Below, piece after piece: positions 13,718-21,377 of a DNA stretch of 64,000 nt (position 1 is its first letter; the number at the start of each line of letters is the position of its first letter). A program made the translations under genes and the position numbers. The notes beneath the pieces are model-generated. The model saw nothing but the letters and a program-made list of their open reading frames with translations, did not search any database and was not told the origin of the DNA. The stretch is from contig NZ_CP104067.1 of assembly GCF_026651875.1 (NCBI RefSeq), positions 2,542,001 to 2,606,000 on the forward strand, read 5' to 3'. The DNA comes from Alicyclobacillus fastidiosus. Its GTDB lineage: Bacteria > Bacillota > Bacilli > Alicyclobacillales > Alicyclobacillaceae.

Positions 13718-13849
13718 GTGTATAACAATGTAGAAGTGGCCTTTGGTATTCGTGAATTGAACCCCTAAGTGAGGACAAAAAACACCTAGATTGCCTGTCG
13801 TTGATAATAAATTAGCGACAGGTAATATAATGCCTTTTTCTTTGGTTGT

Positions 13850-14030
13850 TCCAATGCGGGATTGCACTGAAGAAGATAGATGCTCTCGCCATGGAAATTG
13901 AAGAATATAAGATTATCCAATCTATCCCTGGTATTGGCGGAAAAATCGCGGCAACGATTATTTCCGAACACGGAGAGATAGATCGGTTTAGCTGGGTTAG
14001 TTCAATAGTGCGCCTAGCTAAGCTAGGTAC
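13850..14030 (+). pseudogene. IS110-family transposase fragment
   Basis: A short reading frame encodes IIQSIPGIGGKIAATIISEH and then DRFSW, the hallmark of the C-terminal Transposase_20 domain (IS110/IS116/IS902 family). Both the N-terminal DEDD catalytic domain and the rest of the C-terminus are missing, so only about 60 codons remain. No element ends were identified. It overlaps the tail of the convergent VOC-protein gene region. A molecular scar and not an active element. Confidence 0.75.
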
Positions 14031-14050
14031 AACTTGGGGAAAGAAACCTA

Positions 14051-14431
14051 TCACGAGGTACAAGCTAATGGCGTCCAAATACGCCACACGTGACCTTCCG
14101 GGTCTAAAAATCCGGAAATTAGAAAATGTTCACCTTCGTGTACACGTATAGGTTCGGTTTCGATTCCCTGAGCCGATAGCGCCGCTATTGTTGTTTCAAG
14201 GTTTTCAACCTGTACAACTATGTGAACTGAATGATTGGGCTCTGCACATATAGAACTGTCCGTACACTGGTACAATGCACATCCCGTGTCCGAACCAGGG
14301 ATTGTAAATAAACACCATTTTCTCACATTATCCATATAGGAAACTTGAAGCCCCAACGTTTCTCGGTAGAACGGAATGGCACTTTCAAGGTTTTTGACCG
14401 GTAATTCGACAAATGTAAAGCCTTTTATCAT
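14051..14431 (-). CDS. VOC-family (glyoxalase-fold) protein
   Basis: Small protein of 126 residues with the beta-alpha-beta-beta-beta pattern of the vicinal oxygen chelate superfamily: FVELPVKNLESAIPFYRETLGL at the start (the usual first module) and FLDPEGHVWRIWTP at the end. A candidate metal ligand is His in the HIVVQVENLE strand. It is 24 bases downstream of the IPP isomerase gene on the same strand and may be the last cistron of the bsd operon. Substrate unknown. Confidence 0.85.
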   Translation of the reverse strand: MIKGFTFVELPVKNLESAIPFYRETLGLQVSYMDNVRKWCLFTIPGSDTGCALYQCTDSSICAEPNHSVHIVVQVENLETTIAALSAQGIETEPIRVHEGEHFLISGFLDPEGHVWRIWTPLACTS

Positions 14432-14454: not shown

Positions 14455-15487
14455 TTAATATATCGAAATCAGGCGTTCTTTTCGCAGACATTCAATATTG
14501 TTACTTCCTGTGCAAAACATAGTGATACGCAATTGCTGTTCAAATACACGTATAACCTTTTCGACCTCTTGCGCTGATTCAATTGCGGCCTTCAGAAAAT
14601 GTGAGGCCATGCCAGCGATTGTAGCTCCAAGGACTAAACACTTTGCAGCGTCAATCCCATTGCGTATACCTCCACTTGCTACAATTGGGATATTTGGAAC
14701 ACTATTATGTGCGTGTATGAGTGCATCCACGGTTGGAATTCCCCAGTTGGAAAACGCAGAGGCTATCGCAGACTGTTCGGGTTTACTACGGTGACGTTCA
14801 ACCTCACTCCATGATGTCCCTCCAGCACCAGCAACATCTACTGCAGCAACACCAGCTTGATAAAGAGACTTTACTACCTCGGCGGATAGTCCCCAACCAA
14901 CCTCTTTGACCATAACTGGCACCGAAAGTGTGGCGCAGACTTCAGAGACCCGATCGATTAATTTTTCAAAATGTGTATTTCCTTCAGGTTGTACTGCTTC
15001 TTGAAGGGGATTGAGATGTAGGATCAGCCCATCTGCTTCCATTAATTCCACCAGTTCCGCACATTGTTTTGCCGTACATCCATAATTTAATTGGACTGCA
15101 CCCAAATTGGCAAATAATAATACGTCTGGTGCTTCTTTGCGTACATAAAATGTCTTTACGGTTGCTGGATTACTAAGGGCAACTCTACCCGAGCCAAGCG
15201 CTAAAGCGATATCAAAGTTTTGTGCCGCGATTGCAAGATGTCGATTGATCTGTTCTCCTTGAATCGTTCCCACCTGTCATAGAAGAAATCAAGAGTGGCA
15301 ACCGAAGTACATGCCCCAAAAATTTCACCTTGGTATCGACATCTTCTAGATTCATATTGGGCAATGCATTGTGATCGAAACGGTATCTGTCTAAGCCTGA
15401 AGTAATACCTTTACTCGAAACGTCATATTCCAAGTTAATTTGAATATGATCATTTTTTCGTTTTTCAATCTGGTTAGAGTCCTCCAC
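14455..15487 (-). pseudogene. fni: Type 2 isopentenyl-diphosphate isomerase, one-base frameshift
   Basis: FMN-dependent isomerase that interconverts IPP and DMAPP. The N-terminal part (KRKNDHIQINLEYDV to LISSMTGG) and the C-terminal part (INRHLAIAAQ, LALGSGR, the metal/FMN motif LQEAVQPEG, VASGGIRNG) are in different frames. They join if one G is removed from the GGG at 15271-15269 (CCC on the plus strand), giving about 343 residues, normal for the family. Start is GTG at 15487 behind GGAGGG. It follows ubiX on the same strand after a hairpin. Prenyl-FMN synthesis needs a dimethylallyl donor, so its position is suggestive. Frameshift may be an error in the read data. Confidence 0.85.
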
Positions 15488-15518
15488 GTGTCGTCCCTCC
15501 GTCCCTCTATAATATAAA

Positions 15519-15555
15519 GTCATCCGGGTGAAGGGATATCCCTCATCCGGATGAC
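15519..15555. terminator. Long hairpin between ubiX and fni
   Basis: Inverted repeat GTCATCCGG ... CCGGATGAC continues inward as a nearly complete stem of about 17 pairs with one bulged base and a very short loop. On the minus strand it is followed by TTTATATTATAG, only moderately T-rich. It could be a partial terminator or an RNA-processing stem that lowers expression of the isomerase gene relative to the decarboxylase genes. Confidence 0.6.
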
Positions 15556-15559
15556 ATTG

Positions 15560-16129
15560 CTATTGATGAGAAAGCCATCTTTTGGCTAAGTTATGTTCAA
15601 TTCCGAATTGATCCATCGTACGAGCCACTACATGGTTAATGACATCATCTAGTGTTGACGGTTTGTTATAGAACGTAAGCATCGGTGGTAAAATGACAGC
15701 GCCAGCATTGGAAAGCCCGAGCATGTTTTCAATGTGTATGCTACTTATTGGTAACTCCCGGGGGAGAAGCACCAATTTTTTTCGTTCCTTTAAGATGACA
15801 TCAGCTGCCCTCGGAATCAAACTATCGGCAAAACCGACACGGATTGCCGCGAGCGTCTTCATGCTACAGGGAGCAATCACCATCCCATCGACACGAAACG
15901 AGCCACTTGAAATGAGAGATGCTTGATTGTCTGGCGCGTACACATGGGACGCAAGTTTTTTTACATCGTCCGGGTGGTAGGACGTCTCGATTCGCATTGT
16001 TTTCTCGGCCCACTCGGACATCACGAGATGCGTCTCGATGCCACAATCCTTAAGCGCCTCCAACAACCTAATTCCTAGGATGCTTCCCGTTGCGCCTGTC
16101 ATTGCTACGATAATTTTCACGTCTGTCAC
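15560..16129 (-). CDS. bsdB: UbiX-type flavin prenyltransferase (BsdB)
   Basis: Makes prenylated FMN, the cofactor of UbiD decarboxylases, by joining a dimethylallyl group to FMN. Family features in the 189-residue protein: N-terminal MTGATGSILGIRLLEAL (flavin-binding loop), PCSMKTLAAIRVG, and LLPRELPISSIHIENM near the C-terminus. It lies third in the order bsdC-bsdD-bsdB on the minus strand, the same gene set as the B. subtilis phenolic acid decarboxylase locus. Catalytic residues look intact. Confidence 0.95.
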   Translation of the reverse strand: MTDVKIIVAMTGATGSILGIRLLEALKDCGIETHLVMSEWAEKTMRIETSYHPDDVKKLASHVYAPDNQASLISSGSFRVDGMVIAPCSMKTLAAIRVGFADSLIPRAADVILKERKKLVLLPRELPISSIHIENMLGLSNAGAVILPPMLTFYNKPSTLDDVINHVVARTMDQFGIEHNLAKRWLSHQ

Positions 16130-16142
16130 CTTCTCAGGAGCT

Positions 16143-16370
16143 CTAACTTCTTCTTAGAGCAATTGCGGGATGGATTTGGTACTTGCTCATATCCGACGGA
16201 TTCACCTTAAATCGTGGGTTATATAATTCTGGATTCGTGATCGATTCTGGCTCCGTCGATCTCCATGTAAATGTACAAACTGGACAGACGTACATGATCC
16301 AACATCCTTTTACAGGTGATTCACAGAGAATCTTTGTCTCGTTTGAATCACAACGAGGGCAAGTATTCAT
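16143..16370 (-). CDS. bsdD: Hydroxyarylic acid decarboxylase small subunit BsdD
   Basis: Protein of 75 residues, the same length I recall for B. subtilis BsdD. It starts with MNTCPRCDS and has a second zinc-ribbon pair CPVC, so four cysteines probably bind zinc. FTWRSTEPESITNPELYNP is a clear family stretch. The start is ATG at 16370 with AAAGGAG eight bases upstream; a longer frame exists but begins inside the bsdC end. Required with BsdB and BsdC for non-oxidative decarboxylation of vanillate or 4-hydroxybenzoate in related systems. Confidence 0.93.
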   Translation of the reverse strand: MNTCPRCDSNETKILCESPVKGCWIMYVCPVCTFTWRSTEPESITNPELYNPRFKVNPSDMSKYQIHPAIALRRS

Positions 16371-16384
16371 GCTAATCCGCTCCT

Positions 16385-17806
16385 TTACTTGTTCATCAAT
16401 TGTTTTAAGATTGTCTCCCATTTCGCCGTGTCCCGAGGTGGCTCTACTGTTGGAGCAAATGTTTCTCCTCGAGTCTCTGGTGCCTTTGGTGTAGTGGCAT
16501 CGATAATTAGTTTGTGTGTGATACCCGGGGGGTCAGAACTCGGGTCTAGCGACAACACAGATGCATTTGGAATGACCACCAAATCTTTATCTGGGGCAAC
16601 TCGGGTGGACAATGCCCACATAACTTGGGGTAAGTTAAACGGATCGACAAAGTCGTCGACAACAATTACCAGCTTGCAATAACCCAATCCGTGAGGTGTC
16701 GTCATAGCGCGCATGCCAACGGCTTTGGCAAAACCCCCAAATCGGGTTTTTGTAGAGATAATGGCCGCTAATCCTTGCACAAAGTTGGCATTGACGGCCT
16801 GAACTTCAGGGAATGCCTCTTTCAATTGGTGATAAAGGGGGACGCATGTGTTTATGCTGGTTATAAAATCCATTTCAGTCGGTGACATTCCTAAATACAA
16901 ATGTTCAAATATGGGATTATCTCGGAAGTAAATTGCCTTGATTTGAATGATTGGTTGATGTCGAGCATCTGAATAGCTACCCGTAAACTCTCCAAACGGA
17001 CCTTCAAATTCCCGATAACCTCCAATTAGCTCGCCTTCGAGTACAACCTCTGCACCCCAGGGAATATCCAAGTTGGAATGCTTGGAACGGACAATTCTGT
17101 ATGGTTCACCTTGAATCGCACCTGCCATTTCGTATTCTGACTGCTCATAAGTAAGAGGTGAACCTGCAATGGTAGTAATCACAGGCTCATTTCCAATGGC
17201 TATGGTTACCGGTAAGTTTTCCCCGCGCTCCTCGGCTTTTCTCAGATGAATACCAATGTCGTGTGTAGGAATGGGTTGAATGCCGAGTCGATCTTTACCT
17301 TTTACCTGGATTCTATATATTCCTACATTTTGTTTTCCAAAATTATCAGGGTCGTCAGGGTCTCTACTGATGACACAAGCCTTGTCAATGAAACAAGCAG
17401 AGTCCTCACGATTCAAACGGAACAGAGGGAGTATATCAAAAAGGTTTATGTTTTCCGTTATCTCGTTGGCGTGAAACGGCGCTGTGTCAACCCTTTCGAC
17501 CGGAATAGGAAAATTACTCCAACGACGTGCGAATTCCAAAAACTGCTCTTTGACTGGGGTATCCTTCGGCAGTCCCATCATCAGTGCATGATTTACCCAT
17601 GAACCATGCACGTTGAGTGCAACGCGTCCATTATTGTAGCCGAGAATATTGTTGAAAAGCAGTGCAGGAGCCTGGTCACCAAGGTTGTTGACAGCACGGG
17701 CAGCCGAGCCTAGATCTGGCTCGGGATTGACTTGTTGTGTAACACGCAAAAGCTGCCCTTCCGCATCGAGCTTTTCCAGAAAGGAACGTAAATCTCTGTA
17801 AGCCAT
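16385..17806 (-). CDS. bsdC: UbiD-type hydroxyarylic acid decarboxylase BsdC
   Basis: Prenyl-FMN-dependent non-oxidative decarboxylase of 473 residues, the length I recall for B. subtilis BsdC. The catalytic glutamate pair spaced five residues apart appears in EGPFGEFTG. The start is ATG at 17806 (AYRDLRSFLEKLD) with AAGGAG upstream; the longer open frame lacks a site. Probable substrates are vanillate, 4-hydroxybenzoate or related phenolic acids, inferred from the bsdCDB set and not from a specific residue. First gene of the operon and divergent from a LysR regulator, as in B. subtilis. Confidence 0.94.
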   Translation of the reverse strand: MAYRDLRSFLEKLDAEGQLLRVTQQVNPEPDLGSAARAVNNLGDQAPALLFNNILGYNNGRVALNVHGSWVNHALMMGLPKDTPVKEQFLEFARRWSNFPIPVERVDTAPFHANEITENINLFDILPLFRLNREDSACFIDKACVISRDPDDPDNFGKQNVGIYRIQVKGKDRLGIQPIPTHDIGIHLRKAEERGENLPVTIAIGNEPVITTIAGSPLTYEQSEYEMAGAIQGEPYRIVRSKHSNLDIPWGAEVVLEGELIGGYREFEGPFGEFTGSYSDARHQPIIQIKAIYFRDNPIFEHLYLGMSPTEMDFITSINTCVPLYHQLKEAFPEVQAVNANFVQGLAAIISTKTRFGGFAKAVGMRAMTTPHGLGYCKLVIVVDDFVDPFNLPQVMWALSTRVAPDKDLVVIPNASVLSLDPSSDPPGITHKLIIDATTPKAPETRGETFAPTVEPPRDTAKWETILKQLMNK

Positions 17807-17987: not shown

Positions 17988-18869
17988 TTGGACTTAAAAA
18001 AGTTTCTCTACTTTGTAACAATCGTGGAGGAAGGTCAAATCACACGCGCTGCAAATAAGCTGCACATGGCACAACCGGCGTTAAGCCTGCAACTGAAAGC
18101 AATCGAAGAGGAACTCGGTGTAACATTAATCGAGCGCAACAACAAGAGCATTGAGCTCACGCAGGCTGGAGCGACTTTCTATTACAGGGCGAACGAAATA
18201 TTAAACTCTGTAGACGGAATGCTCTCCGAAGTAAAGGAGCAAGGTATCGGCATTCGTGGAAAACTTTCGATAGGTACAGTGATGTCATGTGTGTCTTATT
18301 TACCGAAAGCAATTAAGATTTTTCAACAGCAATATCCTGCCGTAACTTTTCGATTGTGGGAAGGGGATTCTCACAGGGTGGAAGAATTGCTGCAAGCTAA
18401 AACCATTGATTTGGGGATAACGAGACTGCCCTTAGAGTCCGACAATTTAAACATAATTCGTTTAAATGCTGAACCCTTAGTGGCTGTACAGCCGAATGGT
18501 TGGCATGTTTTTGCAACACCTACAATTTGTATAAAGGAACTGGAAAAGTATCCTCTCATGGTTTTGCACGGCCAAGGGGGGAAAGGCATATTTGAAATGT
18601 TTGTTGAGACGTGCCAGGCTTTTGATTTCAACCCTAAAATTATTTGTGAAAGTCCAGATGTTGCAACATTGCTAACGTTAGTAGACTCAGGTATAGGGAT
18701 AGCTATTGTTCCGAAATTAGCAATACAGTTGAGACCCACGGGAACGTTAAAATACGCCGAAATTACACCTTTGTTAAAATCGGATACGGCGCTTATATGG
18801 CTGAAAAACCGGCGCCTTTCTAAAGCAGCCGAACATTTTAAGGATATACTCCAAAGTTCGGTTAGGTAA
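17988..18869 (+). CDS. LysR-family regulator, BsdA-like
   Basis: LysR-type activator of 293 residues. The N-terminal helix-turn-helix reads FVTIVEEGQITRAANKLHMA then QPALSLQLKAIEEELG; the rest is the two-lobed ligand-binding domain. TTG start behind AGAGGG. It is divergent from bsdC, the arrangement of bsdA and bsdBCD in B. subtilis, so it probably activates the decarboxylase operon when phenolic acids are present. That regulatory role is inferred from position only. Confidence 0.9.
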   Translation: MDLKKFLYFVTIVEEGQITRAANKLHMAQPALSLQLKAIEEELGVTLIERNNKSIELTQAGATFYYRANEILNSVDGMLSEVKEQGIGIRGKLSIGTVMSCVSYLPKAIKIFQQQYPAVTFRLWEGDSHRVEELLQAKTIDLGITRLPLESDNLNIIRLNAEPLVAVQPNGWHVFATPTICIKELEKYPLMVLHGQGGKGIFEMFVETCQAFDFNPKIICESPDVATLLTLVDSGIGIAIVPKLAIQLRPTGTLKYAEITPLLKSDTALIWLKNRRLSKAAEHFKDILQSSVR

Positions 18870-19978: not shown

Positions 19979-20532
19979 CGAGTACACCTCCGAAGGATTC
20001 CCGTTTTACCCAATCGGTGCAAGTCAAAAGTCACTCACGGCCTTCAATCAATTAGTTCTCCGTGTCCGTTTAATAATCCTGCTAATGGATTGTTAAGATA
20101 ATGAAACATGGAAAAATCAGACAAATTGTAGGGGCCTTGCTTAGATGGTCTAAGTAATGGTAGAGTACGACATTACATTACGCAAGAATTGCGCACGACG
20201 CGATGCAATGTTCCTAGTCGTCAAGAGGGCTTGCTCCATTGACGCAAGGCTTATCAGTCGTACGTTTTAATTATCTTGGTCGATACGCTTTTCCGAGAGA
20301 CGAACACCGTTCTTTACGAACAGTGTTCGTTTTGCTGTAAATGAGTTGTTGCTAAAGTCCATGACTATTCCCGCCACTAGAACATGTCGTCTTTCCGGAT
20401 TACGGTTACGATCACATACCTTTCTCACCGGATTAATCGCGTTACCGGAACATTAATCTGTTCAGCAATTGGGCTACGCATTTGGTTATACAGAAGTCGG
20501 TGTTTTGACAATCACCTAAGGAGTTGAACGGG
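19979..20532. other. Intergenic region upstream of monooxygenase remnant
   Basis: About 550 bases without a gene. Its notable content is the pair of CGAAC-N3-GTTC palindromes at 20301-20329. Nothing else coding or structural could be supported. Confidence 0.5.
20301..20329. promoter_or_regulatory. Two adjacent CGAAC-N3-GTTC operator-like palindromes
   Basis: CGAAC-ACC-GTTC at 20301-20312 and CGAAC-AGT-GTTCG at 20317-20329, starting 16 bases apart. The same motif occurs once more at 21380-21392 in front of the TetR gene. The pair can also fold as one hairpin followed by TTTT, so a terminator is an alternative reading. Recurrence next to the regulator favours an operator. Confidence 0.55.
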
Positions 20533-21377
20533 ATGAAGAACACATCTACGAAACAACGCCGTATTGCGATTATCGGAGCAGGGCCAGGTGGACTGACGTT
20601 GGCCCTGATTCTGCAGCGTCACGGAATTCAACCTGTTGTGTACGAGCGAGAGCCACATGACAAAAGCAGCGAAAGAGGAGGATCTCTAGATATTCACGAA
20701 GAATCCGGGCAACGAGCTATTAAGGAGGCGGGGCTATATGATAAGTTTCAGGAGCTTGTGCGCTACGAAGGTGAGGATTTTCGTATCCTAGATAAAACCG
20801 GAAAAATCTATATCGATGAAGTTACTGAACCGGTTGAAAAAGGGGAGCGGCCTGAAATTGACCGAGGTACGCTCTGCGATCTGCTGTTGAGCGGCCCTTG
20901 ACTCCGACTGCATCAAATATGGATATAAACTGGACCGGGCGATTTCTCTCGAGAATGGTATGACTGAGCTTCATTTCGAGAACGGGGTTACCGATACCGT
21001 GCATTTTCTTGTCGGAGCCGACGGAGCATTCTCTCGTGTTCGTACCCTACTCTCGGATACCGACGTCGAATACACAGGTCTTACCATGGTAGAGCTCAAT
21101 GTTTTGAATGTGGCCGAGAATCACCCGGATTTAGCCGAATTCAACAGGCGTTGCAGGAGAAGGTGTAAACCTGGCTATGTTGGATGCTTTGGAGCTGGGG
21201 CGGTCCATCATCGAGTTCGATGATTTAACTAAAGCAATTGAGGCGTACGAGGAAAGGATGTACGAGTATTCGTCCAAGAAGGCGCGGGAGTCATATGATA
21301 ACCTGAAATTGTGTTTCTCTGACGACGCGGCGGTTAAACTGACCAATTTGATGAACAGTTATCGCCAACCAGACTGA
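20533..21377 (+). pseudogene. TetX-like FAD monooxygenase, decayed
   Basis: Remnant of a class A flavoprotein monooxygenase. The N-terminal GxGxxG motif (IAIIGAGPGGLTLAL) and the start behind AAGGAG are intact. The frame breaks near 20895 and resumes as DTVHFLVGADGAFSRVRTLL in another frame. At about 21145 it jumps directly to AGEGVNLAMLDALELG, which belongs near the C-terminus, so roughly 120-130 codons are missing, including the second FAD motif. At least one frameshift and one internal deletion are present. It lies just before a TetR regulator and near its probable operators, suggesting a former drug or aromatic oxidation unit. Confidence 0.85.

Follow-up and report, generated by a model that had tools for sequence, protein, structure and literature searches.

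A predicted hydroxyarylic-acid decarboxylase operon of Alicyclobacillus fastidiosus, vdcC-vdcD-vdcB (alias bsdC-bsdD-bsdB), is followed on the same strand by fni, the gene for a type 2 isopentenyl diphosphate (IPP) isomerase, which is split over two reading frames in this genome and intact at the same place in a relative. The locus was analysed within a 64,000-nucleotide stretch of contig NZ_CP104067.1 (G000:C1:2542001-2606000, G000 being the organism's own genome), referred to below as the window. Judging from gene order, profile matches and genome comparison, we give an even chance to the reading that this is a rare vdc operon variant that took in the isomerase as a supplier of dimethylallyl diphosphate (DMAPP) for prenylated flavin mononucleotide (prenyl-FMN). 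The initial annotation had proposed that the operon co-produces the decarboxylase, its cofactor enzyme and the enzyme for the cofactor's precursor. Unions of fni with vdc genes in two other genomes (G004 and G705) and a DMAPP-using relative of the operon's UbiX-family prenyltransferase, VdcB, speak for this proposal, whereas the frameshift in the window fni and the separate fni and ispH of the same genome speak against it.

Further genomes with fni beside vdc genes

Searches for VdcD found 9 genomes with the protein among 151 relatives (own genome included), 8 among 41 genomes of the family and 2 among the 34 of G705's family; samples of 398 genomes each from the phylum and the class, partly overlapping with the earlier sets, yielded 7 and 15, respectively. 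Our comparison covered 34 VdcD loci from 24 genomes, including the window, 33 of them above the model cut-off and one below (G479). A match in G665 (20.7 bits) was left out, the contig of G017 ends less than 0.6 kb from vdcD, and G821 provided flanks of 1.5 kb only. Neighbouring genes were identified through tblastn searches whose query proteins were fixed, such that genes unlike the queries would go unseen. As the next same-strand gene, fni was found at three loci: in the window (broken), in G004 (intact) and in G705 (intact).

G004, a member of the window's genus, shares the arrangement LysR / vdcC-vdcD-vdcB-fni-VOC, with fni in one open frame (G004:C1:1029838-1030869). In G705, which belongs to another family, the order is LysR / vdcB-vdcC-vdcD-fni-PPOX, again with an intact fni (G705:C33:79790-80872). 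The initial annotation had staked its proposal on co-occurrence in other genomes, and this is what G004 and, apparently independently, G705 provide. In G021, of the same family as the window (VdcC 95% identical), the order is LysR / vdcC-vdcD-vdcB-VOC with ~200 bases from vdcB to the VOC gene; since VOC follows vdcB directly there, the fni of the window lineage sits between two common neighbours. The same holds for G705, as a PPOX-like gene (a name resting on a Pfam match below cut-off) is often next after vdcD: it was the next identified gene, within ~160 bases, in 11 of the 33 loci other than G705 (L058, L059, L060, L063, L065, L189, L190, L193, L197, L198 and L217).

A tree of 66 rows, drawing on 20 of the best 80 genome-contig loci listed for the operon type of Fni (Chloroflexota-type), joined the C-terminal piece of the window Fni with G004 (100/100) and G021 (100/99). 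They belong to a clade of 40 rows that contains Chloroflexota and other same-class sequences and stands apart from the housekeeping Fni of the genus. When added by a quick method (67 rows), G705 Fni fell within the 27 rows of the opposite clade (Shimodaira-Hasegawa-like approximate likelihood ratio test, 100) and not with the window; it is 34% identical to the operon Fni of G004 and 38% to the housekeeping Fni of the window genome. Given this other Fni clade, the B-C-D gene order and the position of fni between vdcD and its frequent next gene, the G705 union looks separate from that of the window and G004. A rough, post hoc model with assumed numbers (3500-4000 genes; 33-36 loci, not the final 34) put the chance of two such unions at ~3e-5 to 2e-4.

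G004 has another C-D-B operon (L070, G004:C1:4225258 onward), whose vdcB seems interrupted, its two matching parts lying ~2 kb apart, and a second, distant UbiD-family gene (L194, 1136-2617) is located just upstream of vdcBCD-fni in G705.

The window fni is split by a frameshift

In the window, fni consists of an N-terminal and a C-terminal piece in different frames that overlap at 15212-15273 (Table 1). A full-length TIGR02151 match in one open frame is thus absent from the window but present in the G004 ortholog (409.6 bits). Alignment to the intact G004 DNA indicated a net length difference of one base at the junction and no further gap within fni, and the C-terminal piece is 84-85% identical to the G004 protein. 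In a mechanical listing, the open reading frame (ORF) of the N-terminal piece opens at 15523 (15523-15212), with the family register being lost at ~15273; the G004 alignment points to a GTG at 15487 as the start. This start leaves a spacer of 72 bases after the vdcB stop, close to the 73 bases from ubiX given originally. Likewise, the order of bsdC, bsdD, bsdB and fni on one strand is upheld by the profile matches, but fni is not the single gene it had been taken for. Because the frameshift splits it, the operon as assembled encodes no whole isomerase, the first of several points that weigh against a role in DMAPP supply.

Conserved FMN/substrate residues are recognisable in both pieces (RK..H in the N-terminal one, by eye; HLNPLQE, VKEVG and GGTSW in the C-terminal one), and G004 Fni is identical to 2zru at 10 of 11 queried positions, the exception being V99. 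Ratios of nonsynonymous to synonymous divergence (dN/dS) between the window and G004 were 0.10 (NG86) and 0.14 (YN00) for the C-terminal piece and 0.20 and 0.36 for the N-terminal piece; vdcC, vdcB and the VOC gene had NG86 values of 0.027, 0.038 and 0.17, respectively. Such purifying divergence in both pieces suggests fni to have been kept as a protein until recently, so that the break would be either recent or an assembly error. In the latter case, the living organism would hold an intact operon fni like that of G004. The single net base difference without any other lesion seen in fni, the open frames of the neighbouring vdcC, vdcD, vdcB, VOC and LysR genes and the low dN/dS would fit such an error, which we consider unlikely all the same, as no long homopolymer lies at the site (by eye) and as genuine gene decay is suggested nearby by a transposase remnant (13846-14151) and a short FAD-binding ORF (20524-20901). 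Both frames overlap and are conserved, as would be expected of programmed frameshifting at the junction; yet G004 has one open frame, and a slippery run of the kind known from such sites is not apparent by eye, rendering this way of making Fni highly improbable.

VdcB resembles a DMAPP-using UbiX

The closest PDB sequence to window VdcB is UbiX of E. coli O157 (1sbz; 60% identity, 109/182). In the part of the report cited here (PMC6541611), this enzyme forms prenyl-FMN from dimethylallyl monophosphate or DMAPP, with higher yield from DMAPP. As a mark of DMAPP use we took His or Gln instead of Phe at the position of PaUbiX F181, a residue that is, in the same part of that report, not the sole determinant (PMC6541611). 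Window VdcB carries such a residue, His166, which aligns with His164 of 1sbz. Based on this likeness, VdcB could directly use DMAPP made by an intact Fni, and a local DMAPP supply is plausible where fni is intact.

We infer both this supply role and the joint expression of fni with the vdc genes. In G004, expression of the operon would most likely let Fni convert IPP to DMAPP, the adjoining VdcB would prenylate FMN with that DMAPP, and the resulting prenyl-FMN would pass to the VdcC decarboxylase. The window operon, if the sequence is right, would draw its DMAPP from the methylerythritol phosphate pathway (via IspH) and from a distant housekeeping isomerase. In a stronger version, vdc operons have on at least two occasions gained a type 2 IPP isomerase dedicated to supplying DMAPP, DMAPP can limit cofactor formation upon induction of the decarboxylase, and the hairpin before fni sets its dose; this we put forward tentatively, as possible rather than probable. 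Findings on AroY, a prenyl-FMN enzyme, call for caution against assuming the cofactor to be limiting: in the part of that study cited here, UbiX expression in E. coli did not raise product, perhaps since endogenous UbiX was enough (PMC8044207).

If the recruited isomerase does feed UbiX, the supply of prenyl groups would naturally constrain prenyl-FMN enzymes, and Fni co-expression would be an easy measure to try when UbiD-type decarboxylases are to be loaded. The interesting part is the pair of apparently separate unions, which make the idea of DMAPP supply testable. In searches of the open-access literature, we found no published report of fni placed with vdcBCD/ubiX.

Rarity of the arrangement and other sources of DMAPP

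The remaining points against a supply role begin with rarity. No fni adjoins vdcD at 31 of the 34 loci, and for these the initial annotation holds in describing the arrangement as absent from the classical bsdBCD locus. Strong ubiX and strong fni matches are both listed in 49 of the 151 relatives (a set without G705) and lie within 200 bp of each other only in G000 and G004. None of the best 80 loci listed for the operon type of Fni is near ubiX/ubiD or vdc genes within the flanks taken (up to 6 kb, often shorter), and the vdcB-VOC gap of G021 gave no fni match.

Hairpins, moreover, separate fni from the vdc genes in the window (z computed on a 69-base stretch) and at the same place in G004, where a similar structure is weaker against shuffled sequences (z -1.37; 25/200 shuffles as good). 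Scans for terminators and promoters, both weak tests, listed no terminator-like site, the window hairpin included, and no promoter-like site between vdcB and fni. In G705, a terminator-like hairpin of 12 pairs with a U-run lies between vdcD and fni, which may therefore be transcribed apart from the vdc genes; as no second copy was found either (E up to 1e-20; draft genome 99% complete), this raises the possibility that the G705 fni may be a housekeeping gene.

Lastly, the contig of the window holds an intact distant fni (C1:896706-897689; TIGR02151, 335.6 bits; ~31% identical to the operon type) and one ispH. IspH yields DMAPP as well as IPP. Because both genes are present, the window genome is predicted not to depend on the operon fni. 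That the operon Fni is itself the genome's housekeeping isomerase was rejected on account of the low identity, the other clade and this further intact copy.

Conceivably, then, Fni has no special tie to UbiX and is a spare or sole isomerase, shuffled beside vdc genes by mobile elements and serving general isoprenoid or quinone synthesis. The association is indeed rare and dispensable, the G705 gene is a sole copy behind a terminator-like hairpin, and the 62% identical Fni of G021 is encoded on another contig than its vdc operon. Mobile-element genes also flank the loci, namely an IS110 remnant in the window and, in G004, reverse-transcriptase-like ORFs (by eye) on both sides of the LysR-to-VOC block at distances of 1.0-1.3 kb. 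Against this stand the two unions, which involve different Fni clades and both place fni on the operon strand, after the last vdc gene and before an accessory gene, and the purifying selection on an extra copy in the window lineage despite a housekeeping fni. We hence regard the absence of a special tie as somewhat unlikely.

Housekeeping fni was also seen at longer range. In four genomes of the window's genus, ~6-18 kb separate it from a vdc locus or from a partial match to vdcD (G000:C1:881346, a partial vdcD match, and 896706; G007:C42; G012:C1; G004:C1:695914 and 714374); this is not so in G001, and in G005 the two are on different contigs. As operon links, housekeeping-type fni genes 11-18 kb from ubiX (ten loci) and 5.8 kb from a vdcBCD operon (G007 and G012) were rejected as too far away. 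Among plasmids, the matches to Fni (170 records) and VdcC (412 records) all stayed below 60% identity.

Two further UbiX genes exist in the window genome. Its second vdcC-vdcD-vdcB copy (L064) had no fni match within the 14 kb taken. At L074 (G000:C1:4001830), a third UbiX (67% to VdcB) adjoins a distantly related UbiD (30%) and a VOC gene (41%), forming another UbiX-UbiD-VOC group that lacks fni.

The operon and its neighbours

On the minus strand of the window, the order is vdcC, vdcD, vdcB, hairpin, fni and VOC, with the LysR gene divergent (Table 1). VdcC and VdcD score above their NCBIfam cut-offs and are joined by a UbiX-family partner, indicating the operon to be of the vdcBCD/bsdBCD type; VdcB clears the cut-off of the general UbiX model and scores slightly under that of the stricter NF041206 (276 bits; cut-off 290). 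The best PDB match of VdcC is 7ae4, a phenolic acid decarboxylase. The divergent LysR gene adjoins the operon in G004 (81% identity) and G021 (86%) as well, and VOC homologues follow fni in G004 (72%) and vdcB in G021 (64%). The FAD-binding ORF is monooxygenase-like and short, matching profile positions 4-65 only (region 20524-21223), and is probably a truncated gene.

Table 1 Features of the vdc-fni locus in the window
Feature	Position	Strand	Evidence
IS110-family transposase remnant (weak)	13846..14151	+	PF02371, 24.2 bits (cut-off 21.3), 36 residues only
VOC/glyoxalase-superfamily protein, next gene after fni	14051..14431	-	PF00903
fni, C-terminal piece, other frame	14455..15273	-	TIGR02151 positions 65-335, 331 bits (cut-off 281.3)
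fni, N-terminal piece, one frame	15212..15487	-	TIGR02151 positions 1-68, 68 bits; start placed at the GTG at 15487
Hairpin between vdcB and fni, then UUUAUAUUAU	15519..15555	-	minimum free energy -25.5 kcal/mol, z -3.22
vdcB/bsdB, UbiX-family flavin prenyltransferase, 189 aa	15560..16129	-	TIGR00421 (ubiX_pad), 269 bits (cut-off 108.9)
vdcD/bsdD, small subunit, 76 aa	16143..16373	-	NF041205, 95.9 bits (cut-off 30)
vdcC/bsdC, UbiD-family decarboxylase, 473 aa	16385..17806	-	NF041204 VdcC, 772 bits (cut-off 650); UbiD Pfam domains
LysR-type regulator, divergent from operon	17988..18869	+	Pfam HTH_1 and LysR_substrate

Comparison with known systems

With the bsdBCD/vdcBCD operon (NF041204, NF041205, NF041206) the window shares all three genes and the LysR neighbour. 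It differs in its order, C-D-B instead of B-C-D, in an adjoining VOC gene without a PPOX-like gene, and in the broken fni between vdcB and VOC. Measured against type 2 isopentenyl-diphosphate isomerase, Fni/IDI-2 (TIGR02151; PDB 1vcf, 2zru, 1p0k), the C-terminal piece alone exceeds the equivalog cut-off, but the frame is split and the operon Fni falls in a clade apart from the housekeeping Fni of the genus. VdcB is like E. coli O157 UbiX (1sbz) in its 60% identity and in keeping the equivalent of His164; we know of no isomerase gene in the locus of that enzyme. Finally, the archaeal modified mevalonate pathway likewise ties a UbiX-dependent decarboxylase to isoprenoid units: in the part of the report cited here, isopentenyl phosphate is formed by a decarboxylase that has a UbiX partner (PMC8184944). 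The product of the archaeal decarboxylase is itself the isoprenoid precursor, whereas in the vdc-fni operon the isomerase would feed UbiX.

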